Shown one piece after another: positions 16 to 35,051 of a stretch of 47,195 bases of DNA. The notes beneath the pieces are model-generated. The model was not told where the DNA came from. It saw nothing but the letters and a program-made list of their open reading frames with translations, and ran no database searches. Source of the DNA: Treponema sp. (GTDB taxonomy: Bacteria; Spirochaetota; Spirochaetia; Treponematales; Treponemataceae); NCBI GenBank assembly GCA_024695475.1, contig JAILIC010000003.1, forward strand, positions 1 to 47,195. Direction: 5' to 3'. A program made the position numbers and the translations under genes. How positions within the stretch are numbered: position 1 is the first letter of the stretch; each line of letters begins with the position of its first letter.

Positions 16-1143
16 ATGAATAAATGTATTGTAATTCCAGATTCCTTTAAAGGTACTATGAGTGCAATTGAAATATGCGATATTATGACAAAAGCAATTC
101 ATACCGTTTTTCCTGAATGCACGGTTGAATCTGTCCCTATAGCAGATGGTGGAGAGGGTACAGTTGACTGCTTTATGTATGCACTTAATAGTAAAAAAAT
201 CATGGTAAGTACCACAGGCCCCTATGGAGAAAAGATTGAAGCTTATTATACAAGAATCGGTAATAAGGCAATCATGGAAATGGCATGTTGTGCAGGATTA
301 CCACTAGTTGGAGATAACAAAGATCCTTCAAAAACAACAACTTTTGGATTAGGAACACTTATACTCCATGCAATCCAAAATGGATGTACTGAAATTGTCA
401 TTGGCTTAGGAGGAAGCTGTACCAATGACGGTGGAACAGGTGTTGCTAGAGCCTTAGGTACAACGTTTTATACATCAGAAGGAAAAATATTTAATCCCAA
501 ATCTGATGAGTTTACTTCGATAGCTCATATAGATAACAGTAAAACAGAAAAACTACTTTCAAATATTCAAATAACAGCCATGTGTGACATAGATAACCCC
601 TTATGCGGGCCAATAGGAGCATCTGCAATGTTTGGTCCTCAAAAAGGAGCCAGCAAAGATATGGTAGCAATCCTAGACAAAAATCTGGATGCGCTTTCTT
701 CTATTATATATAAAGACTTGCATAAAGATGTCAAAGAGATTCCAGGAGCAGGGGCAGCCGGAGGTATGGGTGCAGGAATCGTTGCTTTTCTTGGAGGAAA
801 ATTAAAATCAGGCATAGAGACTGTTCTAGATACAGTACACTTTAACACCCTGCTCCAAGGAACAGATATCGTTTTTACAGGCGAAGGAAAAATTGATGCT
901 CAAAGTTTTCATGGTAAGGTAATTAGCGGAATTGCAAACAGAACAAAAGCAGCTCATATTCCTTTAACAGTTATTGCAGGAGATATCGGAGACGACATAC
1001 CTGAAGATGTGTACGATCGAGGGATAAGCGGTATCTTTACCATTAACAGAAAAGCACTCCCCTACAAAGAACTTAAATCGTACAGTCCTGAATACCTAAA
1101 AAAAACTATGCTCGACATATTACATTTTTATAAAGCAAAGTAA
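16..1143 (+). CDS. garK: Glycerate kinase (GarK/GlxK family)
   Basis: Phosphorylates D-glycerate with ATP in the cytoplasm, feeding it to lower glycolysis; family members make 2- or 3-phosphoglycerate. The 375 residues match the usual family length. Family hallmarks are visible: DSFKGTMSA near the N-terminus (residues 9-17), the glycine-rich GLGGSCTNDGGTG segment around residue 131, and GEGKIDAQSFHGK around residue 291. The ATG lies just after a GAGG. The convergent neighbour is a tartronate-semialdehyde reductase, whose product is D-glycerate, so the two enzymes form consecutive steps. Family assignment is firm; the exact phosphorylation position is not visible from sequence. Confidence 0.93.
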   Translation: MNKCIVIPDSFKGTMSAIEICDIMTKAIHTVFPECTVESVPIADGGEGTVDCFMYALNSKKIMVSTTGPYGEKIEAYYTRIGNKAIMEMACCAGLPLVGDNKDPSKTTTFGLGTLILHAIQNGCTEIVIGLGGSCTNDGGTGVARALGTTFYTSEGKIFNPKSDEFTSIAHIDNSKTEKLLSNIQITAMCDIDNPLCGPIGASAMFGPQKGASKDMVAILDKNLDALSSIIYKDLHKDVKEIPGAGAAGGMGAGIVAFLGGKLKSGIETVLDTVHFNTLLQGTDIVFTGEGKIDAQSFHGKVISGIANRTKAAHIPLTVIAGDIGDDIPEDVYDRGISGIFTINRKALPYKELKSYSPEYLKKTMLDILHFYKAK

Positions 1144-1171
1144 TAAGCAAAGATCGCCAGCAGGCTAAAGT

Positions 1172-1202
1172 TGCAGATTATCTGTATTACAGATAATCTG
1201 CA
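1172..1202. terminator. Bidirectional hairpin between convergent garK and garR
   Basis: A perfect inverted repeat: GCAGATTATCTGT (1173-1185) pairs with ACAGATAATCTGC (1189-1201) around a 3-nt loop, with one more T-A pair outside. It lies in the 64-bp gap between the ends of two convergent genes. On the plus side it is followed by a T-rich stretch that is not a clean U-tract. Bidirectional terminator is inferred from position and symmetry. Confidence 0.7.
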
Positions 1203-1207
1203 CTATT

Positions 1208-2089
1208 TTATTTACCAATTTGCATATTTGCCATTTTTTCATAATACTTTGCCAAAGCACTGTGATCATCTTTTTCACAACCATCAGCTTTAAGTGACTG
1301 CATCATTTCCATAACCTGACTGGCAAGCGGAACAGGACTCGTAACAGCATGCGCTGCATTCAATACATTTGTTAAATCCTTTATATGCAACTCAATTCTA
1401 AAACCAGGTTTATAGTTGTGTGCCAAAATCATCGGAGCTTTTGCATCCATAACACTCGAACCTGCAGAACCACCTCTAATTGCCTGATACACCAATTCAG
1501 GATCAGCACCAGCTTTTCGAGCAAGCATCAGTGCTTCAGATACTGCCGCTATATTTACCGCCACCACAATCTGGTTAGCAAGTTTTGCAACATTACCGGC
1601 TCCTAATTCTCCCACATAGGTAACAGATGCAGCCATCTTACCAAGCACTTCTCTATATTTATCAAACAGTGCCTTTTTACCACCGCACATGACTGCCAAT
1701 GTACCGTCAATTGCCTTTGGCTCACCACCAGAAACAGGAGCATCAAGCATATCGATACCTTTTTTTGCAAGTTCCTCACCAATCTTACGAGTTTCGACTG
1801 GGTCGATAGAGCTCATATCGATGACGACAGTACCAGGCTTTGCCGTACCAATAACTCCATCCGGACCAAGAAGCACCTCACGAACCTGAGGCGTATTCTG
1901 AACCATAGTAATGATAAGATCACATTCCCTACCAATTTCAGCATTACTTTTTGCCGTAGCTCCTAGTGTAACCAGCTCATCAGCTGCTGCTTTTGTATGG
2001 TTACTTACAACAACATCATAGCCAGCCTTTACAAGATTTTTGCTCATCGGCTTACCCATAATTCCAAGACCAATAAATCCTATTTTCAT
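1208..2089 (-). CDS. garR: 2-hydroxy-3-oxopropionate (tartronate semialdehyde) reductase
   Basis: Member of the beta-hydroxyacid dehydrogenase family; NAD(P)H-dependent reduction of tartronate semialdehyde to D-glycerate is the likely reaction. The Rossmann motif GFIGLGIMG begins at residue 4, the substrate-binding DAPVSGG lies at 116-122, and the catalytic lysine is K169 in GNVAKLANQ. Length (293 aa) is typical. The adjacent convergent glycerate kinase supports this substrate over 3-hydroxyisobutyrate, which the same family also uses. The start is the ATG preceded by a purine-poor GGGGGCAGG-like leader. Confidence 0.9.
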   Translation of the reverse strand: MKIGFIGLGIMGKPMSKNLVKAGYDVVVSNHTKAAADELVTLGATAKSNAEIGRECDLIITMVQNTPQVREVLLGPDGVIGTAKPGTVVIDMSSIDPVETRKIGEELAKKGIDMLDAPVSGGEPKAIDGTLAVMCGGKKALFDKYREVLGKMAASVTYVGELGAGNVAKLANQIVVAVNIAAVSEALMLARKAGADPELVYQAIRGGSAGSSVMDAKAPMILAHNYKPGFRIELHIKDLTNVLNAAHAVTSPVPLASQVMEMMQSLKADGCEKDDHSALAKYYEKMANMQIGK

Positions 2090-2217
2090 ATACCTGCCCC
2101 CATTTTCTTTGTTTAAGCTATCTAACAGTGTATAATACCTTTAGCGTTTTGCGTAGTTTATTTTCTGCGTTGTAAATCTTCTTTTCTTCTGATATATTTC
2201 ATACAATTGGAGTTGTT

Positions 2218-3333
2218 ATGAAAAAAAACATTGTACCGCTACTGGTTCTCGTTGCTCTTGTTCAGACCAGTTTTGCAGACGATTGGTTTATGGCACAGAC
2301 AGAGACAGCTGATGTCAAATCTGTAGTAGCAACAAGCGAGCTTGTAGAAGCTCAGTTCAACGGAAAGTATCTGTATCCGCCAATCAACATCCTTGACGGC
2401 AATTATGACAGCACATGGTGCGAGGCAGATCAAAGTGGTCCAGGCATTGGCGAATCAATTACGGTAGAATTCTCTCAGCCAGTAAGCTTTGACGAGATTC
2501 AGATTGTAAATGGCTTTGCTTCAAAAGACTATTACAAAAAGAACAACCGCGTAAAAACAATCGTGCTCACACAGGTTGCAAAAAAACACTTTCAGCAAAA
2601 AGAATACACTTTAAATGACGATACTCCGACCTGGCAGTCAATCAACTTTGCTCTACCTCAGACAGCACAGACCATTACCATTAAAATAACAGACGTATAC
2701 AAAGGCTCAAAGTACGATGACACCTGTCTTGATGACATTCGTCTCTTATACAAGGGTAAAGTTATTCCTTTTACCGGTGTTGAAGAACTTAAAAAGATTC
2801 AGGAAGAAAACTCAAAACTTATGCTCAAAAGCTCTGCTGCAGACTTTAAAAGTCAGCTTTTAGCTCTTTCTTACGGCAGTGCAAAGATATACTTAAAAAG
2901 TCAAAAAGATGATTCTGCAATTATCATACACAAATCAAACGACGGTCAAAACATTACCGACATTCTTATAGGTGATGCATATTTTATCAAAAATGGTTCA
3001 GAAGAAGACGTCATAGCTCGCATTAATCAAACAGGATTTAACAAAATGTATCTTAATAAAGGCGACTTTGATTCTGAAATGGAACACTACTATACACAGG
3101 CGCAAAAGAAAAACTCAGAATATTTACTTCTCGGTTGGCAATGGAATAATTATGAAATTCAATGGGATATCGGTAACTTTAGACTCCTTAAAACCGAAAG
3201 AATTGATTATGTTAGAACAACTACTGCCATAATCATAAAACTAGACGGCAACACGGTATACTGGAATGGAGTTCCTTATACAGTTATTACCGAGCAGCAG
3301 ATTTTCGATATCCGTCAGTGGGACGGATACTGA
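2218..3333 (+). CDS. Exported protein with discoidin-like (F5/8 or NADase-type) glycan-binding domain
   Basis: A signal peptide covers residues 1-20 (KKN, hydrophobic core, cleavage near SFADD). Residues about 40-180 resemble the beta-sandwich of discoidin/NADase-type glycan-binding domains: the segment ILDGNYDSTWCE is the typical 'DGN..T.W' start, followed by ITVEFSQPVSFDEIQIVNGF. The C-terminal half (about 190-371) has no fold I recognise. A GGAG motif lies just before the ATG. It begins a plus-strand cluster and overlaps the next gene by 16 nt, suggesting co-translation with a VanW protein. A periplasmic or surface role in binding envelope glycan is inferred only. Confidence 0.7.
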   Translation: MKKNIVPLLVLVALVQTSFADDWFMAQTETADVKSVVATSELVEAQFNGKYLYPPINILDGNYDSTWCEADQSGPGIGESITVEFSQPVSFDEIQIVNGFASKDYYKKNNRVKTIVLTQVAKKHFQQKEYTLNDDTPTWQSINFALPQTAQTITIKITDVYKGSKYDDTCLDDIRLLYKGKVIPFTGVEELKKIQEENSKLMLKSSAADFKSQLLALSYGSAKIYLKSQKDDSAIIIHKSNDGQNITDILIGDAYFIKNGSEEDVIARINQTGFNKMYLNKGDFDSEMEHYYTQAQKKNSEYLLLGWQWNNYEIQWDIGNFRLLKTERIDYVRTTTAIIIKLDGNTVYWNGVPYTVITEQQIFDIRQWDGY

Positions 3334-6273: not shown

Positions 6274-9144
6274 ATGAAAAAACACATTCTTATTCTTTAT
6301 ACTATTGCAGCCCTAGTTGGATGTGCAAAAAAACAACCAACCGTAACTGAAAACCCAGATATTATAACCCCAGAGCTCGTTACCGAAACGCTCCAAACTA
6401 CCACAGCTGACAGTCTGTATGATGCAAGTCAGTATGTGTGTGATCTAAACGCTGTTGGAAGCATGGTTACATCCAATAAAGATACCCCGATGTATCGCCT
6501 GCCATCAGCAGACTCTGAGCAAATAGGTTTATTTAAATCAGGGGAATCCGGCTTTGTAAAACAAGTAGGAATGCGAGCAGATAAAAATAAAGACCTCTAC
6601 TGGATATATCTGTGCAACAGCAGTCAAAATAGCAGTGGCTGGATAATTAATTCTAAAGAACAGCCTTTTGCAAATACAACACCAGGTAAGCAAACAAATG
6701 GCAATACCTTGATTTACGAGCGTATAAATGCAGACATAACAATCGAACCACAAATCAGCATTAGTCAAAGCAGACATCCAAGCGGTCCTTACAAGTTTCA
6801 AACAAGTCCCTCAGGTAAACGATGGGCATATTCCACAAATTCTACCCTGTCTATTTTTACCGAAGATAAGGGAACTGTTACTAATACACAAGTTTCTATC
6901 CCTAAAGATTCCTATTCTGAGGCAACTTACACGATTCCCTTTACTTTTATTACTGACGACTTGATTTATTTTTGCTATGACTGTTTTCCTCTCGATACAC
7001 GCTATACCTTATTTAGCTATAACATAACCACTAACCAAATAAAAAAAGTCTTGAATTATGAAAAAGCCTATGATAATGGACCTGTATATCAAACAGAAGA
7101 AGTGTATGTCAGTCCAGATAAAAACTTCTACTATTTTGTAACCAAAAGTGGCGTCTTTTCGTATAATGTAAAAAAACAAGAAATCTATAAGCACACATTT
7201 AACGACCTTACAAGAGACCGACATCTACAGTACGGCAAAATTGTTTTTAACGAGCTAGGTGACGCATTATTTTCTGTTACAGGATACAACAATGGTTTGC
7301 ATCCAGAGTATAGACCTGACCATGCAATGGTATATATAAAAGCCGAAAGCTGGCCTCATGAAGAAATAAAGTTTATGCAGGTCATGACTTCAATTGCTGG
7401 ATATACCTTTACAGATAAAAATAAAGCCGTCTTACTGGACGACAGACTTATCGTATATGATTTTAGCGATCCATCAGACACCTATATACAACCAGAAAAG
7501 CAAACACCGCTTCCAGTGAAACTTACTGACTCTTATGAAGATTATTATTCTTATAGAGGAATAACTTTTTATACAAATTTACTTGTTGATAAAAAATCCG
7601 AGGTACTAGCTCTTATCGCGCAAAATGGGGCAAAAAAGAGCATCAGTTTTTACAGTCTCAGTACACTGGACTTTTTATACTGTCAAAACCTAAGAAAAGA
7701 CAAAGATTTGATACATTATGAACTAAACAATAACAAGCTTACGCTTGTGTATAAAGATGACTCTCAGACTATTACTGACAGATATACCATCACCGTAAAA
7801 AAACATGTTACAGAGCATAGTTTTTATGAGCCATTACGTATTAATCAGGCTTGTATTTGTGCATACAGTTATTACAACATAACCGTCCCCGAAAAAGATA
7901 TCTTTTACCAATATCTGTTCTTACCAAATAACATTTATTTTGAACATGTACTATCTGGTGAAGCAGGATTGTTAGCAGGTGTCGCAGGAGCTTACGAAGT
8001 TTTTGATGACCATATCGAAACCTATGAACCTACAGCATTCTATGATTGCTATGATACAAATAGCACCTACGATTTTCATGTTACCCCACGGGAGGCAACA
8101 TACACGTTTACCTACCAAAACGAAAATCTAGGCCACCGATATATGGACTATCAATGCACCCTCACGTTTGGTCAGGAAAGATATAACCCGTCAACCCATC
8201 AATACACAGGCGTTCAGTATGAAGACGCTTTATATAAGCGTTATGCATTAGCGTTTAACGAGCTTTCTGAAACTACTGACATCATTGGTGAGTTTACGGA
8301 CACCGATTACAAAGTGGTGAGAGACACACAACGCTTTGGCGCCGCTCCCATACCGGCAGGCAAAATCATTACAGCAAAATACTTAGAATATGGATTACTC
8401 GATGAATATACCATATCAATTATTTCACGAGTAAAACCACTTGAACGGGTCAATTTTTATCTCTGGCCAGAGGATATGGGTCCTATTGCATGCGATGACC
8501 TTGTACTGGCAGAGTCAGACACACTGCCTGCTTCGATAACAATAACAAGAGATACCCGCTATAGCAAAAAGTGGATTCCTGTCTGGTATAATACCATTCT
8601 TTCGTCTGACAAAAAACTGGAAGATTATTCTCAGTATTACAAAGAACACAAAGACAACAGAAAATTTAGAATGTACCAGACTCATAAAGTCGACTTTAGA
8701 AACACATTCTTGACTTTTTCACTGCCAAACCGTGATGTGTATTTTCTTATAAGAAAAATACACCAAGATAACAATCGATGGTACATTACCGCTGAGATAG
8801 CATCACGCGCACAGGCTGACTTTAATCAGTTTTTTGGAAATGACTCTTTTGACAATCTTCCCGATCTCACCAATAACCGCATCGCAGAGTTTATCATCGA
8901 ACAAAACGGAAACTTCATTAAGCTCTACAATGCAGAAAACGACGGCCTCATTGTTGAACTCATGTGTGTTGATCAAGACTGGATGGAGGCAATGGTAAAA
9001 TACATCAAGTCCGACAAACACTATAATCCGTCTGGCATAAAAGAAATTACCTGGCAGAGCGAAAGTAAACCTACACCACTTGTACCAGGACACGATGAAC
9101 AGGAGCCTTCTACAGAAAAAACGGAATTAACATTGATGAAATAA
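6274..9144 (+). CDS. Large lipoprotein with SH3-like and propeller-like regions
   Basis: I place the start at 6274, where GAGGATATCAA precedes ATG and a lipoprotein signal follows (lipobox ALVGC, Cys17); the frame is open further upstream into the previous gene. The mature protein is about 940 residues. Residues about 70-140 resemble a bacterial SH3 domain (MYRLPSADSEQIGLFKSGESGFV...WIYLC...GWI). Residues about 170-520 hold repeated 'SPSGKRWAYS' and 'SPDKNFYYFV'-type strands like a beta-propeller. The C-terminal part is unassigned. It is likely anchored in a membrane facing the periplasm or surface. No enzymatic motif is visible. Confidence 0.75.
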   Translation: MKKHILILYTIAALVGCAKKQPTVTENPDIITPELVTETLQTTTADSLYDASQYVCDLNAVGSMVTSNKDTPMYRLPSADSEQIGLFKSGESGFVKQVGMRADKNKDLYWIYLCNSSQNSSGWIINSKEQPFANTTPGKQTNGNTLIYERINADITIEPQISISQSRHPSGPYKFQTSPSGKRWAYSTNSTLSIFTEDKGTVTNTQVSIPKDSYSEATYTIPFTFITDDLIYFCYDCFPLDTRYTLFSYNITTNQIKKVLNYEKAYDNGPVYQTEEVYVSPDKNFYYFVTKSGVFSYNVKKQEIYKHTFNDLTRDRHLQYGKIVFNELGDALFSVTGYNNGLHPEYRPDHAMVYIKAESWPHEEIKFMQVMTSIAGYTFTDKNKAVLLDDRLIVYDFSDPSDTYIQPEKQTPLPVKLTDSYEDYYSYRGITFYTNLLVDKKSEVLALIAQNGAKKSISFYSLSTLDFLYCQNLRKDKDLIHYELNNNKLTLVYKDDSQTITDRYTITVKKHVTEHSFYEPLRINQACICAYSYYNITVPEKDIFYQYLFLPNNIYFEHVLSGEAGLLAGVAGAYEVFDDHIETYEPTAFYDCYDTNSTYDFHVTPREATYTFTYQNENLGHRYMDYQCTLTFGQERYNPSTHQYTGVQYEDALYKRYALAFNELSETTDIIGEFTDTDYKVVRDTQRFGAAPIPAGKIITAKYLEYGLLDEYTISIISRVKPLERVNFYLWPEDMGPIACDDLVLAESDTLPASITITRDTRYSKKWIPVWYNTILSSDKKLEDYSQYYKEHKDNRKFRMYQTHKVDFRNTFLTFSLPNRDVYFLIRKIHQDNNRWYITAEIASRAQADFNQFFGNDSFDNLPDLTNNRIAEFIIEQNGNFIKLYNAENDGLIVELMCVDQDWMEAMVKYIKSDKHYNPSGIKEITWQSESKPTPLVPGHDEQEPSTEKTELTLMK

Positions 9145-9145
9145 A

Positions 9146-9163
9146 AGATAATCTGTATTATCT
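9146..9163 (+). terminator. Weak hairpin after the large lipoprotein gene
   Basis: AGATAAT (9146-9152) pairs with ATTATCT (9157-9163) around CTGT, immediately after the stop codon at 9144. No T-tract follows, so intrinsic termination is uncertain. The sequence resembles the hairpin at 1172-1202. Confidence 0.35.
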
Positions 9164-9315
9164 GAGAAAAAAGTTGACTTGCGTTCAATCACTGAGTCTG
9201 CCAGTTTTATGAACACATATGAAATGTGCATCGAGGAAACATACCTCGGAAACAAATGGCAGGCTGCAGCTTTAGCAACTCTCGATGTCGACTTGGAAGA
9301 GCTATAATCGATTGC

Positions 9316-10185
9316 TTACAGGAACTCAACTTCACTGTCTTGAAACGTAAATGGTTGTTCTTCCTGTGAGCTATCATAGTTAAAAATACAGTCTACACGG
9401 CAGTAATCAGATTCAACCGTTTTCTTTGTCAGCTCTACGAGGCCGTACAGACGATAGCTGGTTGTTTTTGACTTGATAAAAGTCATGCAATAATGCAACT
9501 CTTTGGGAGAAAAACCTTCGCCTCTCAGAAAATCAATTCTTGAGAGGTACCACTCTCCTGTAGTCTCATACTGCAAATCATTATCAAACAGGATTTGTTT
9601 AGCATGTTCTTCGGCAGTCTTTAAGATAAAAGCTGCATGCTTATTATAAATACGCTCATAGTCACCATTTTCAAAATAGACTTCCGGCTTACATAGTTTT
9701 TTGATTGTTACCGGAAGATTATCTTTATTTGCTTTATCAGTTTTTCTGTTTTGGAGTACAAAGTCATCAAAGGCTATGACAATCTTTGTTTCATCAACGT
9801 CAATCAAAAACAACAGAAGAAACAGACATGAAAAACAGAGCATATAGCAGACATAGATGATATCTGAAAGCTTATATCTAAATCGCTGTGTCGCGTTTCC
9901 ATTTAAAAATCCAAATACAATAAGCAGTGCAATAAAAAGGATTGCCGCAATAAAAACAAACGGCTTTACACTTTTTTTAGCAATGCCAAACAGGCGCATT
10001 ATCTTGTTTATGCCCAACAGTATAATAAAACCCGGCAACGTTAAACACAAGCCAAATAAAATCTGTACTTTCAATTCTGAACCAAAAACAGGATTAATCA
10101 GGAAATCTAATACCAGAGCAACTATAACAGAAAGCACTGCAAGTATACATAAAGTAATAACCGTGTTCTTTTTAGTAATATGCAT
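9316..10185 (-). CDS. Membrane protein of unknown family
   Basis: About 289 residues starting at the ATG at 10185, which an AGGTGG motif precedes; an in-frame GTG three codons upstream is less likely. Four hydrophobic helices occupy about residues 9-30, 40-60, 75-95 and 105-128. The remaining 160 residues are soluble and contain YERIYNKHAAFILKTAEEHAKQILF, probably an amphipathic helix. I do not recognise a family. It is transcribed divergently from another membrane protein (10368) of similar layout, with 180 bp between the two starts. Confidence 0.6.
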   Translation of the reverse strand: MHITKKNTVITLCILAVLSVIVALVLDFLINPVFGSELKVQILFGLCLTLPGFIILLGINKIMRLFGIAKKSVKPFVFIAAILFIALLIVFGFLNGNATQRFRYKLSDIIYVCYMLCFSCLFLLLFLIDVDETKIVIAFDDFVLQNRKTDKANKDNLPVTIKKLCKPEVYFENGDYERIYNKHAAFILKTAEEHAKQILFDNDLQYETTGEWYLSRIDFLRGEGFSPKELHYCMTFIKSKTTSYRLYGLVELTKKTVESDYCRVDCIFNYDSSQEEQPFTFQDSEVEFL

Positions 10186-10367
10186 TTTTACCACCTAGTC
10201 AAACCGTAAAAACAAAGTCGCTTGTTTTGCAGTTGATATAGCAGGCATTATAGTATAAATATATATGTTGACCAAGTAGTGCATTTTACAATAGAGTATG
10301 CCTTTAAGTTGGTTCAATGCCCATCAGTTAACTAACAAAGTAAAAATACCTACAGGAGATACCGTAG

Positions 10368-11675
10368 ATGAGAAAAACATATTTTGAAGGGTACAAACTC
10401 GGATTACTTTTAATAGCCGTTTCTATTGCTCTGCTATTGATTTCAGGCGCAATAAACCCAAATGCAGAAAAATACGCCGTTAAATCTTTTACAATGGGAG
10501 TTATCTGTTTTTTCACAGGTGCAGCACAACTTATTTGCCCCGGAACAACCCGTGGAGTTGACATGGAGGACAAACAAAACCGTCTCAGTCAACGATTCTC
10601 TGTTGCAGACGGAATGACTAAATTTGTATGGGTGTTCTTTCTAGTACTGGGCATTGCACTTTCGGTCTACCTGATGATTTCAGAGAACGTGTATCTGGCA
10701 CCGATATTTGCCAAAATATCCGTGCTGTTCGTTCTTGCTCTCTTGGCAGTCAAATCTTTTGTCAAACTCATCATATCATTATTTAAGCTTCCAGAAACAA
10801 CTGAAAGTGAACACCTCGCCAACCAGCAAATGAAAGAAAAGGACGATACAGAACCACGATATGTCTTTGCCCTCATACTGCTTGTAAGTCTCGGCCTTGG
10901 CTTTGTTACCTGGCGCTCGTTTTCACTTGGTGATTTCTATACCCTTACCAAGACGTATCCATTGTTGGAAAGAATAATGGAAAAACAAGTTGTCAAACAC
11001 TATTTCACACAAGAACATCTTGAAGATATTGTCTCATTCCGCATAAAAAACTATGACCATGATGGCTATACAAACGATTACTATTATCTTATCGATGAAG
11101 AAAATGAGCCAATCCTTGCTTCATGTCCAGTGTGGCAGCTTGTACTCAATGCCATAAACGAAGACACTGATATTGCCATTTCGTACAAAAATCTCCCCTA
11201 CACTTTTAGCCAGTATGAGCTGAAAAATCAAAACGAAGTACTGTCGTATCTTAAAGCAAAAGGTCTGGACACCTCTTTCAAAGGCCGCATTTCAAATGAC
11301 GATGAGACATTTAACAAGGAAGGTCTGCGTAAAATCGCCGAAAACCTCTGCCAAGCAGCACTTGAAAATACAGAGATTCCTGTCATTATAGATGATACGC
11401 TGAGCTATAATTATGAATACCTTACCGCATGGATGATTCCTAATTTTTGTGCATATAAAGGCATCGACATGAACGCAGAAGACTGGACGGAAAATCTTAA
11501 AGGCTACACAATGGCTTCCCTTGACGAGGTATTTGCTTTTTTGTGTGATGATGATGAAAACGATAAAAACGGCATTGCCTTTAACATAGGAACCGAAGAC
11601 GCACTGCTGATTCCTCACGCTACCCTGAAGGAAGCCTGGCACAAACTAGCCGGCGAACCAGAACCCGCTGAGTAG
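10368..11675 (+). CDS. Membrane protein of unknown family
   Basis: 435 residues. Hydrophobic helices lie at about 11-30, 42-62, 88-108, 113-135 and 163-183; the rest (about 190-435) is soluble and acidic, with SDDDENDKNG-like stretches near the C-terminus. AGGAGA lies 10 nt upstream of the ATG. No conserved motif was recognised. A clear terminator follows directly, so this looks like a single-gene unit. Confidence 0.65.
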   Translation: MRKTYFEGYKLGLLLIAVSIALLLISGAINPNAEKYAVKSFTMGVICFFTGAAQLICPGTTRGVDMEDKQNRLSQRFSVADGMTKFVWVFFLVLGIALSVYLMISENVYLAPIFAKISVLFVLALLAVKSFVKLIISLFKLPETTESEHLANQQMKEKDDTEPRYVFALILLVSLGLGFVTWRSFSLGDFYTLTKTYPLLERIMEKQVVKHYFTQEHLEDIVSFRIKNYDHDGYTNDYYYLIDEENEPILASCPVWQLVLNAINEDTDIAISYKNLPYTFSQYELKNQNEVLSYLKAKGLDTSFKGRISNDDETFNKEGLRKIAENLCQAALENTEIPVIIDDTLSYNYEYLTAWMIPNFCAYKGIDMNAEDWTENLKGYTMASLDEVFAFLCDDDENDKNGIAFNIGTEDALLIPHATLKEAWHKLAGEPEPAE

Positions 11676-25490: not shown

Positions 25491-26096
25491 TTAGGCGTAT
25501 AATCCGTTCAAAGCGTTTTTCAAAGTGCTAAAAGCAGCCTTTTCGATCTGATGAATGCGAGTTTTAGTAAGACCATAACAGTCGGCAATAGAGCTAAAAG
25601 ATTGAGGTTTTGTGTTTCCAAAACCATAGTGGCGGATAATAACGTCAGCTTCCTTTTTAGAGAGGGAATTAATGGCATCTTGCACACATTTAGAGACAGC
25701 TTCGTTCATATATTTTTCTTCGATTGGGTTTGTTAAATCATCTTCCAAAGCAGAAAGGATAGCTTCGTCATCGATATCGCACTCGTTTGTTTTTACGTAT
25801 TTACCAGCTGCACGCTGAATTTCGTTGCGGATGTACCATTTTGCATATGTTGTAAAACGAAAGCCTTTTTCAGCATCAAAGCGGTCAACTGCACGGATCA
25901 GGCCGACAATAGCTTCGCTGATTAAATCTTCACGTTCAAGCTTATAACCACGAAAACCCTTTGAGTAATGGATTGCAAATGGAATATTAGCAAGGATAAA
26001 ATGCTCGCGTGCCTTTTTGTCACCGTTTTTAACACGGAGTGCACACTGGTATTCCTCATCAGCTGAAAATGTGTTATAATGTGGATAGTTACTCAT
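25491..26096 (-). CDS. Sigma-70 family RNA polymerase sigma factor
   Basis: 201 residues. Region 2 spans about 28-95: EREDLISEAIVGLIRAVDRFDAEKGFRFTTYAKWYIRNEIQRA, containing the core-binding and -10-recognition helices. Region 3 is shortened. Region 4 spans about 140-195 with INSLSKKEADVIIRHYGF and the HTH SSIADCYGLTKTRIHQIEKAAFSTLKNAL. It resembles small RpoD/RpoH-like alternative factors rather than ECF. GGGGG precedes the ATG. Being next to the FliG-like block, it may control genes there, but no target promoter is shown. Confidence 0.9.
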   Translation of the reverse strand: MSNYPHYNTFSADEEYQCALRVKNGDKKAREHFILANIPFAIHYSKGFRGYKLEREDLISEAIVGLIRAVDRFDAEKGFRFTTYAKWYIRNEIQRAAGKYVKTNECDIDDEAILSALEDDLTNPIEEKYMNEAVSKCVQDAINSLSKKEADVIIRHYGFGNTKPQSFSSIADCYGLTKTRIHQIEKAAFSTLKNALNGLYA

Positions 26097-27175: not shown

Positions 27176-27808
27176 TTATTCCTTATATCGAAACAAAAAC
27201 ATTTCCAGCTGCTCTGATGAGACATTATGAATCATTGCAAGTTCATCCATAAGGCTAAGATAATTTGGATAACACTTTTGGTTTGCTGCCCACTCTGTAC
27301 CAGGGAAGTCATCAAACCGATTTAAATTTTTTACAACCTTGCTATCAAGAATAAGGCATTTTTTACCTTCAAAAGAAACGTTAAAGAAATATAATAATTT
27401 AGCTTTTGTAGCCATACCATATTTACCTAGTCCTTGAATATCGCACATATTGTTATAGACTTCTTGTAGTTGTGCCGCATTCAAATTTTGATTTTGTATT
27501 CTTGAAAAAATAGCTTCCAATTTTGTGAGATGATTAGCAATATCTTCAAAAGTTGCCTGAGGCGGGGTTCCACTCGGTGTTTGATATCCCCACATCAAAA
27601 CTTTCATTATTTTTGTTTTTATATCAGTTTCGGCTTTTACCTCTCCGCGAGTCAAAGTGATTTCATCTGTTGTAAAGATTGCTCTGTGTAAAGCATCTTT
27701 TTCAGGATAATTAAGCGCATCCCAGTTTCTTTTTCTGATTTTATCAATTTTGTGATTTTCCACATCAAGGTTTCTGATTTCATCAATGTGCTGAGCAATT
27801 GTTGGCAT
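27176..27808 (-). CDS. OGG-fold HhH-GPD-like DNA glycosylase
   Basis: 210 residues. A helix-hairpin-helix lies at 123-140: DIQGLGKYGMATKAKLLYF. Residues K135 (in MATK) and D155 (in ILDSKV) are 20 apart, close to the catalytic Lys-Asp spacing of OGG1, and the segment LILDSKVVKNLNRF resembles the helix bearing the catalytic aspartate. This suggests a base-excision glycosylase of the 8-oxoguanine OGG-fold family found in bacterial genomic islands. AGGAGA is upstream of the ATG. N-terminal 80 residues are unassigned. Substrate is unproven. Confidence 0.65.
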   Translation of the reverse strand: MPTIAQHIDEIRNLDVENHKIDKIRKRNWDALNYPEKDALHRAIFTTDEITLTRGEVKAETDIKTKIMKVLMWGYQTPSGTPPQATFEDIANHLTKLEAIFSRIQNQNLNAAQLQEVYNNMCDIQGLGKYGMATKAKLLYFFNVSFEGKKCLILDSKVVKNLNRFDDFPGTEWAANQKCYPNYLSLMDELAMIHNVSSEQLEMFLFRYKE

Positions 27809-30029: not shown

Positions 30030-30794
30030 CTAAATAGTTTCCTCTCCTATGCTGCCAAATGCCGTAGCAGGAATAATAATATCACCTGAAGACTCGAGCC
30101 GTCGTACTATTTTTACAAGATTTTTTTGACTTGCAAGTACATCACTTTTTTTAACAGGTCCCATAAAATCCATATCTTCCTTAAGCATCCCAGCTCCCCG
30201 ATGACTCATATTCCTAAAGACTTTTTCCTGTACCATTTTGGAGCTTCCTTTTAAAGCCTTTGCTAATTCCGTAGTTTCAACTTCTCTGAGCCATTTTTGA
30301 ATATCTCTGTCAGACAGATCAATAAGTATGTCCAAATTTACAAGATAATACTCAAGGTTCATTGCCAAAAGAGGATTTACGGCAAAAAGAACGTCCACAC
30401 TATCGTGCATTTTATGTACAAAAGTTGCATCTTCACCTTCTACCAGTTCTGAAGCTGCCTGCTCTCCATAAAAGTCTGCATTTTTTAGTACGGTGCCTGC
30501 CGCACTCATCACATCCGCGTCACAGTTTTTTTTGTCACCACAGGTCTCTAATATGTCAGATACTTTTTTACGCACATTTTCGGGAAGTTTTTGGAGAGCC
30601 TGTTTGCAGCGTTCTTCAGGAAGATAGACAAGGAGCAAGGCAAGATTTTTTTCGTAGCCACCAGCGATAAAGTCTTCTATTATAGTAAATGTTTTTTCGT
30701 TTGCTTTGGCACAACGTGCTTTAATCGTTGCCTGCATGGCCTGCGATTTTTCGTTATCCGTGTCATCAATTATAACCGTGTTTTGTTTTTCCAT
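30030..30794 (-). CDS. FliG-like protein (middle and C-terminal domains only)
   Basis: 254 residues. Residues 120-254 clearly match the C-terminal rotor domain of FliG: DRDIQKWLREVETTELAKALKG, QEKVFRNMSHRG and KEDMDFMGPV. The charged residues used for torque in E. coli FliG (K264, R281, D288, D289, R297) align with K182, R199, E206, D207 and K215. Residues about 45-105 resemble the middle domain (LLLVYLPEERCKQALQKLPE) but EHPQ is replaced by YEKN, and the N-terminal FliF-binding domain of about 100 residues is missing. It is embedded in an AAA+/PcfJ operon, not a flagellar one. GAGGAG precedes the ATG. Confidence 0.88.
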   Translation of the reverse strand: MEKQNTVIIDDTDNEKSQAMQATIKARCAKANEKTFTIIEDFIAGGYEKNLALLLVYLPEERCKQALQKLPENVRKKVSDILETCGDKKNCDADVMSAAGTVLKNADFYGEQAASELVEGEDATFVHKMHDSVDVLFAVNPLLAMNLEYYLVNLDILIDLSDRDIQKWLREVETTELAKALKGSSKMVQEKVFRNMSHRGAGMLKEDMDFMGPVKKSDVLASQKNLVKIVRRLESSGDIIIPATAFGSIGEETI

Positions 30795-33125: not shown

Positions 33126-35051
33126 ATGGCAAAAGCTTCTCCTATTTTTGCGTTATTAAAGTTTTACGCAACCCATTTAAAATCTTCAATTGTAGAAGTT
33201 ACTGATTTTATTTTATACGTAAAAAAATATACTCAACATCATGTAGAAGAACAACCGGAATTAATTACATTCTTAGATAATCCAGAGCAAAAGATTACCC
33301 AAGAGCTTGATAATCTCGTTGCTTCAAAAGATATTGTCATTGCTGAGCTCAGCAATAAAAAGACGGTTATTTTTATTGTCTCACAATTTGTAGAGCATTA
33401 TGACAAGATTTATCAAACTATTCTTGCTAAACCAGAAACGCCTTTTCCTATCGTTGATAAGCTGACAAAACAAGTACCAAAAGAGATTCTCTGCCAAAAG
33501 ACAATTACCAGTTTTTTAGAGACTCAATTAAATACACCCAAACTATCAAACAAAGAATTATACTGTCTTACTTTTGAAAAAGAGATTCCTTCTATTGTAT
33601 ATCCATCATCTTTTCCTGCTGAAAAGTTTGCTGATATTGCATTAACAAAAATCAAGTTGCTTTTGGACAAAGATCAGTATCACGAGTTTTTTGAGAATAA
33701 ACTGCGCATGTCTAACCCTGGAAAAGAAATTCAGGCAAAGAATTTCTTCAAGGCCTTTGTAGACACCCCTGAACGAGCTGCAGATACCTTAAAAAACAGT
33801 ACTGATAGTTTTTATTTCTTTACACAGCTTTGCTACTTTATCTCGCAGGAATTCAAGAATGTAACTGACCTTACCGTAGAAGATCAGAATGTACTGCAGT
33901 CTGTACAGATTGCTCAGCTCATTATTGCACACTATAAAAATCAACTGCAAAAAAATCAAAAGATTTCCATGGCACTAGATACGGTCAAAGAGTATCTTCT
34001 TAAACAACCGTATTATTATAGCATGGAAACTATTTTGAATTTTACCGACAGCAAGGGTATCTTGCTCCGTACACAATATGAAGATGCAAACCTCAAAGAG
34101 TTTCTTGAAAAAGAAACTTCTTCCGGAGAAAGTAATGCATTGCCACAATTGTTGGTATTTAAAGTAGAGTCTGGTAAACGATATTTTATCTACAAGCACC
34201 GTGTATTTCCGTTAATTTTGCGTTTGTGTACCGATGCGCACGATGCTATCAGTAAAACAATCAGCGACAATTGGTACGAGGCTCTATATCAGTTTGAAAA
34301 ACTACCCGAGATGACAGATACAGCAGCATTTGAAAAGATGCTCGAAAAAGAAGTTGAGACAGCCTCCCCTGTATTGTATGCCTTGTTACATGCCAACTTT
34401 TTGACCATGCTTGGCTATGAAATGACAACATCAGGGACAGATCAGCATCTCAACCTTATTTTTGCAAACAATGAGTTACTCCCCTACAGCGAACTGCTCA
34501 TGATTAAGCAGCACACATTATATGAAAATGCAAAAATAAAACTGCCATTCTGGTATACGCTTCCTGTTTTATCTTGGTTTGCTACATTCCTGCATAACAG
34601 AAAAAAGAATAAAAAACAAAAAGCAAAAACAAGTCAAAAGCATAACAGCGTATCAAGTAATGATGAATTTGAAATACCAAGTTCAGGTTCTCAGCCAGTA
34701 TCAAAAAAGGAAGCATTATCGAAAGCTGCCAAAAAGCTTGAAAAACAGTATGTCCAAGAAGGCTCAACAATTAATCGTGAGCTCGAATCCTTCTGTAAAC
34801 AATGGAATAAGATGCTGGATAAAAATGCCTATGAAAACCTGCGAGAGGACGTTGACAGTCTGGTACGTGACTATATGCGCAAGATATTTAGGTCGCTTAA
34901 CGGTTCCACCTTTACTGACGAGCGATTACAAAACCTTGCAGAAACATTATGTAACGTTCCGGGCATGAAGAAAATTGGAGAGCGAGACGCTTTGCTTATG
35001 TACGTCAAGCTTTACATGCTTCTTTTGATAAAAAATACCAACGGCAGATAA
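33126..35051 (+). CDS. 641-residue protein of unknown family
   Basis: Mostly helical with many charged residues. A hydrophobic segment PFWYTLPVLSWFATF lies near 485-505, directly followed by a highly basic low-complexity stretch (NRKKNKKQKAKTSQ, about 508-525) and a Ser-rich linker. No signal peptide. I recognise no family or catalytic motif. It is divergent from the AAA+ gene and shares the 40-118 bp between the starts. Nine Ts follow soon after the stop, but no strong stem was seen. Next downstream is ssb. Confidence 0.6.
   Translation: MAKASPIFALLKFYATHLKSSIVEVTDFILYVKKYTQHHVEEQPELITFLDNPEQKITQELDNLVASKDIVIAELSNKKTVIFIVSQFVEHYDKIYQTILAKPETPFPIVDKLTKQVPKEILCQKTITSFLETQLNTPKLSNKELYCLTFEKEIPSIVYPSSFPAEKFADIALTKIKLLLDKDQYHEFFENKLRMSNPGKEIQAKNFFKAFVDTPERAADTLKNSTDSFYFFTQLCYFISQEFKNVTDLTVEDQNVLQSVQIAQLIIAHYKNQLQKNQKISMALDTVKEYLLKQPYYYSMETILNFTDSKGILLRTQYEDANLKEFLEKETSSGESNALPQLLVFKVESGKRYFIYKHRVFPLILRLCTDAHDAISKTISDNWYEALYQFEKLPEMTDTAAFEKMLEKEVETASPVLYALLHANFLTMLGYEMTTSGTDQHLNLIFANNELLPYSELLMIKQHTLYENAKIKLPFWYTLPVLSWFATFLHNRKKNKKQKAKTSQKHNSVSSNDEFEIPSSGSQPVSKKEALSKAAKKLEKQYVQEGSTINRELESFCKQWNKMLDKNAYENLREDVDSLVRDYMRKIFRSLNGSTFTDERLQNLAETLCNVPGMKKIGERDALLMYVKLYMLLLIKNTNGR

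Follow-up and report, generated by a model that had tools for sequence, protein, structure and literature searches.

A short FliG-like protein and a PcfJ-domain partner form a variably present gene pair in gut Treponemataceae

The window, a stretch of 47,195 nucleotides from Treponema sp. (contig JAILIC010000003.1), carries a short fliG-like gene that is flanked on the same strand by genes for a PcfJ-domain protein and an AAA ATPase, with further genes for an OGG-like protein, a 199-aa protein and a small sigma-70-like protein beyond (Table 1). The sequence GAGGAG, which resembles a ribosome-binding site, lies 5' of the short fliG reading frame.

Table 1. Genes at and around the short fliG locus (positions are those of the window)
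Feature	Position	Strand	Remarks
Short FliG, middle and C domains, 254 aa	30030..30794	-	Torque positions K182/R199/E206/D207/K215
PcfJ-domain partner, 583 aa	28269..30020	-	PF14284, E 9.9e-12; starts 9 bp past the short fliG stop
AAA ATPase, 744 aa	30851..33085	-	PF00004, E 2.9e-21; 56 bp upstream of short fliG
OGG-like	27176-27808	-	PF21790 (8-oxoguanine glycosylase OGG-like), E 1.1e-18
Protein, 199 aa	26233-26832	-	Downstream of pair
Small sigma-70-like	25491-26096	-	Downstream of pair

A profile search matched residues 139-241 of the short FliG to FliG_C (E = 4.5e-32), gave a weak FliG_M match below the cut-off (E = 0.036) and returned no match to the FliF-binding N domain, the absence of which had been claimed in the first-pass annotation. 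The TIGR00207 alignment begins only at profile position 121, and its score of 116 bits falls below the equivalog cut-off of 226.7. Solved structures of the FliG middle and C domains (MC) aligned to residues 41-242 (E 7.5e-28), the range that corresponds to positions 120-324 of the Salmonella FliG chain 8umd. At the C-terminal end the offset to 8umd is a constant +82, which leads from the five charged residues listed in Table 1 to K264, R281, D288, D289 and R297, and the alignment to the host's FliG2 is gapless here; the earlier assignment of these residues to the torque sites is thus borne out. The AlphaFold2 model of the protein (pLDDT 83) found FliG MC chains as its top structural matches (1lkv, E 5.6e-9). 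Its C domain agrees with that of MotAB-bound FliG (8ucs_H) to 1.3 A at 52% identity, and the VIA Z for this domain was 15.2. In the middle domain the EHPQ-type FliM-binding tetrad is replaced by GYEK in our alignment; the first-pass annotation had correctly reported the loss of EHPQ but had read the replacement as YEKN, and the tetrad of the host's canonical FliG2 is itself EYPQ. The short FliG is a FliG-derived MC protein that has the torque charges but neither the domain for binding FliF nor the motif for binding FliM.

The host genome contains three FliG_C genes, encoding the short FliG, FliG2 and a FliG1-like protein. FliG2 (356 aa; G000:C116) is encoded between the C-terminal part of fliF and fliH, so that a full fliG does exist elsewhere in the genome, and because other FliG_C genes are present the window gene is not the host's only fliG. 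The C domain of the short FliG is 57.5% identical to that of FliG2, ARM_M 32% and the linker 13%. Borrelia FliG1 (PMC7225975) resembles the short FliG in being a divergent second FliG of a spirochaete, but the host's own FliG1-like protein (436 aa; L003 1468-2778, minus strand, G000:C104) retains the N domain while most of its torque charges are gone in the alignment, which is the reverse of the short FliG. The host also has a single FliM gene, and of its two MotA/ExbB-family genes one shares the FliM contig; a canonical FliG or FliM is present in every short-FliG carrier examined. In several treponeme genomes (G090, G095, G096, G100, G165 and G177) the FliM-domain matches number four or five, not one, so accessory copies may exist for FliM too.

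The torque charges of the window gene would suit a second, stator-driven rotor ring. However, the FliF-binding domain and FliM-binding motif are absent, no second FliF-like gene is adjacent and no stator or ring gene is linked. We therefore regard this possibility as very improbable, and the earlier proposal that the protein drives another rotor is unsupported.

The next same-strand gene after the short fliG is a PcfJ-domain gene in 34 loci, many of which were found through FliG. A scan from the partner side, in which the PcfJ profile was run against 84,980 species genomes, found 30 loci, almost all from gut Treponema or Spirochaetales. Seven of these, which lie at a contig edge or hold no full reading frame, were left out of the pairing count; a short FliG stands directly upstream of PcfJ in 21 of the 23 judgeable loci, the exceptions being L205 and a Veillonella locus (L213). 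The partner in the window passes the PF14284 gathering score of 25 with 45.3 bits. Spacing between the two genes ranges from -89 to +31 bp in 30 of 33 pairs and is larger in three. The mirror-tree correlation between short FliG and PcfJ reaches r = 0.84, to which plain linkage contributes, whereas permutation gave at most 0.38; dN/dS between close members is 0.19-0.33.

In genome G132 a MatE gene and a gene for a 529-aa protein flank the pair. These two flanking genes adjoin each other without the pair in G100, G090 and G095, where the flanking proteins are about 87-90% identical. Such precise absence of the short fliG and PcfJ genes from a conserved junction in close relatives marks the pair as a presence/absence cassette. 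By their adjacency, near-overlap, co-evolution, purifying selection and variation between close species, short FliG and PcfJ form a co-inherited, selected and variably present two-gene unit acting together. In T. bryantii NK4A124 (G086) the corresponding junction instead holds two other genes of 380 and 157 aa (L244 2551-4157, plus strand, G086:C4), and this junction is possibly a site of variable gene content.

Relatives of the AAA ATPase adjoin the pair in L069, L071 and L124, so that the AAA gene recurs beside the pair in four loci and is an optional third gene of the cassette. It is the only neighbour that recurs; the others differ between loci, which rules out a larger fixed operon. The window gene at 33126-35051, beside the pair and the AAA gene, was found in 59 of 59 genus genomes, and in five relatives its neighbour on the cassette side is a different gene. 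Downstream of the pair, the order of the OGG-like, 199-aa and sigma-70-like genes is conserved in L071 (T. bryantii NK4A124), although their membership of the module is uncertain. The pair lies outside flagellar operons. Its Pfam-matching neighbours are ordinary (transporters, MCP, EAL/GGDEF, ferredoxin, ADP-ribosylglycohydrolase), and no integrase or transposase was identified among the few neighbours scanned.

At least three FliG_C genes occur in about 58 of the 195 genomes of the family, with a maximum of seven. After duplicate removal the short-FliG class, defined as 170-310 aa, comprises 67 proteins, two of which are probably fragments of other genes; no short member has an EHPQ-type motif. 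In the tree, a group (96/98) made up of FliG2 and a few diverged accessory members stands apart from the main paired short-FliG group (92/88), which includes the window protein; the deep placement of long branches is unsure. This separation points to an old, diverse lineage in gut Treponemataceae rather than a fresh duplicate, and to the extent that the deep branching holds the tree rules out a recent fliG duplication. A decayed fragment of a duplicated fliG would account for the absent N domain, but the open and conserved reading frames of the family, the dN/dS values given above, the constant partner and the tree position outside the FliG2 clade all argue against it; the conservation data refute this explanation, and we give it a negligible probability.

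Several other arrangements of FliG parts were observed. Strongly diverged FliG_C genes in tandem or with double domains occur without a PcfJ neighbour (L165 6008-7579, L166 5432-9306, L172, L173, L175 and L074), and an 816-aa fusion (L164, G165:C6:1-3539, 710-3160, plus strand) consists of a UPF0227 (YqiA-like) part, a FliM-like part containing FliMN_C, and the FliG middle and C domains.

A phage origin was rejected. The sole phage match of the short FliG, MT835480.1, is a cellular flagellar operon; the record (L084), named 'Bacteriophage sp.', carries FliF, FliG, FliH and FliI-like genes and is probably misassigned as phage. The FliG encoded by the lone viral-contig match is long and has the EHPQ motif, which speaks against a viral origin. 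On this 89.9-kb contig (L085, IMGVR_UViG_3300005200_000008), FliM and a 404-aa FliG are encoded at 8066-10645 on the plus strand; the start of this FliG resembles the FliF C-terminal tail, and DNA methylase-like genes lie nearby. As for a plasmid origin, the annotated entries among the matches listed are FliG genes.

We examined how the torque charges are conserved among the 34 paired short FliGs. R281 is R in 29, and positions 288 and 289 are acidic in 31 and 32, respectively (85-94% retention for the three), and K/R is found at K264 in 25 (74%) and at R297 in 21 (62%). The claim that all torque charges are kept therefore holds for the window gene and only partly for the family, in which K264 and R297 are relaxed. 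For MotA contact, R281, D288 and D289 are primary and K264 and R297 secondary (PMC6079164), and the order of conservation in the short FliGs is the same as this published order of importance. Torque-helix positions 280, 284 and 287 are variable. Nevertheless, when all 34 charged positions of the FliG2 C domain are ranked by conservation, the primary trio comes no higher than the upper third, with K249, R245, R252, E253 and K273 beside it. MotA binding by the short FliG is plausible from these patterns, and because other C-domain charges are retained equally, MotA contact is a reasonable inference rather than a demonstration.

The same data bear on a reading in which the protein has no role at the motor and its FliG MC fold instead serves PcfJ as an adaptor or scaffold, its charges being kept only for folding or self-assembly. 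Since charges without a known MotA role are conserved as well as the primary ones, a fold constraint may suffice, and the strong divergence of the middle domain and linker (13-32% identity to FliG2) is in keeping with such reuse. However, the primary-over-secondary order fits MotA contact and the exposed neighbours on the torque helix are variable, so we consider an adaptor without a motor role quite unlikely.

The AlphaFold2 model of the PcfJ partner (pLDDT 84) offers a weak lead to its function. For the last 100 residues all 50 VIA matches listed are GNAT-type acetyltransferases (best Z 7.9), with Foldseek E values above 0.1, so likeness of this C domain to the GNAT fold is at most suggestive. 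The N-terminal and central parts had no solved-structure match among the matches listed, which the C domain filled. We found no link of PcfJ to the flagellar motor, and open-access literature searches tied no function to the family.

These features could also fit a conflict module, either toxin-antitoxin or anti-phage, in which the short FliG would be a FliG-shaped antidote, decoy or sensor and PcfJ an effector of possibly acyltransferase-like activity, with the AAA ATPase as an optional regulator. The arrangement of a small gene followed by a larger, near-overlapping second gene is of this kind, as are the patchy distribution with precise absence from close relatives, the fast divergence, the orphan tandem copies of the small gene, the weak GNAT-fold likeness and the resemblance of the AAA gene to IetA, which PADLOC detected in the ATPase part only. 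Against this, PADLOC had no match for the short FliG or PcfJ, no defence genes were recognised among the neighbours scanned, and the model gives no reason for an antitoxin to have remained a FliG MC protein. We judge a conflict module, the chief competing reading, unlikely.

We favour a stator- or rotor-docking modulator that carries PcfJ, with a probability of roughly 0.4. Lacking the FliF-binding domain and an EHPQ-type FliM site, the short FliG would be barred from the standard routes into the C-ring. It might instead dock onto MotA or rotor C domains via the conserved R281/E288/D289 face and so deliver PcfJ to the motor; acting there as a clutch or competitor in certain conditions, the pair may alter stator engagement or motor output. 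In favour of this reading are the fit of the C domain to MotAB-bound FliG, the order in which the charges are conserved, the loss of the EHPQ-type motif, the canonical FliG or FliM of the carriers and the obligate-looking partner; the equal retention of other C-domain charges, the location outside flagellar operons and the missing link of PcfJ to the motor weigh against it. Possible competition with FliG for stators, as first suggested from the window sequence, is close to this mechanism.

Compared with canonical FliG (PF14841/PF01706, TIGR00207), the short FliG has the middle and C fold and the torque charges in common, but it lacks the N domain and E(H/Y)PQ, lies outside the fliF-fliG-fliH operon and is paired with PcfJ. 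The partner shares a C-terminal PcfJ domain with an HNC motif region with the PcfJ-like proteins (PF14284) of plasmids and phages, although the match to these relatives is confined to the C-terminal part, and in two that we inspected (from a Selenomonas plasmid and a Brevibacillus phage) no FliG is annotated alongside. EpsE, a glycosyltransferase, and YcgR, a PilZ protein, are motor clutches or brakes. Both resemble the proposed role of the short FliG in being soluble proteins at the FliG-MotA interface, but neither is a FliG mimic. In the open-access literature we came across no account of a FliG mimic that is variably present and coupled to PcfJ, most subscription papers and preprints being outside the scope of this search.

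More broadly, the short FliGs could be fast-diversifying rotor mimics that bind their own cell's stators and carry a PcfJ effector, forming a transferable cassette for motor control or hijack, to which fusions of FliM-like and FliG parts would add further members; we hold this wider view tentatively and think it somewhat doubtful. The cassette may represent an unrecognised way of tampering with the flagellar motor. Should it act on the motor, it would be a motor regulator of rotor origin that differs between close species, and the PcfJ family would gain a testable role. Some carriers are in culture (Treponema bryantii NK4A124, T. saccharophilum DSM 2985 and T. zioleckii kT3), so the motor question can be tested in them.
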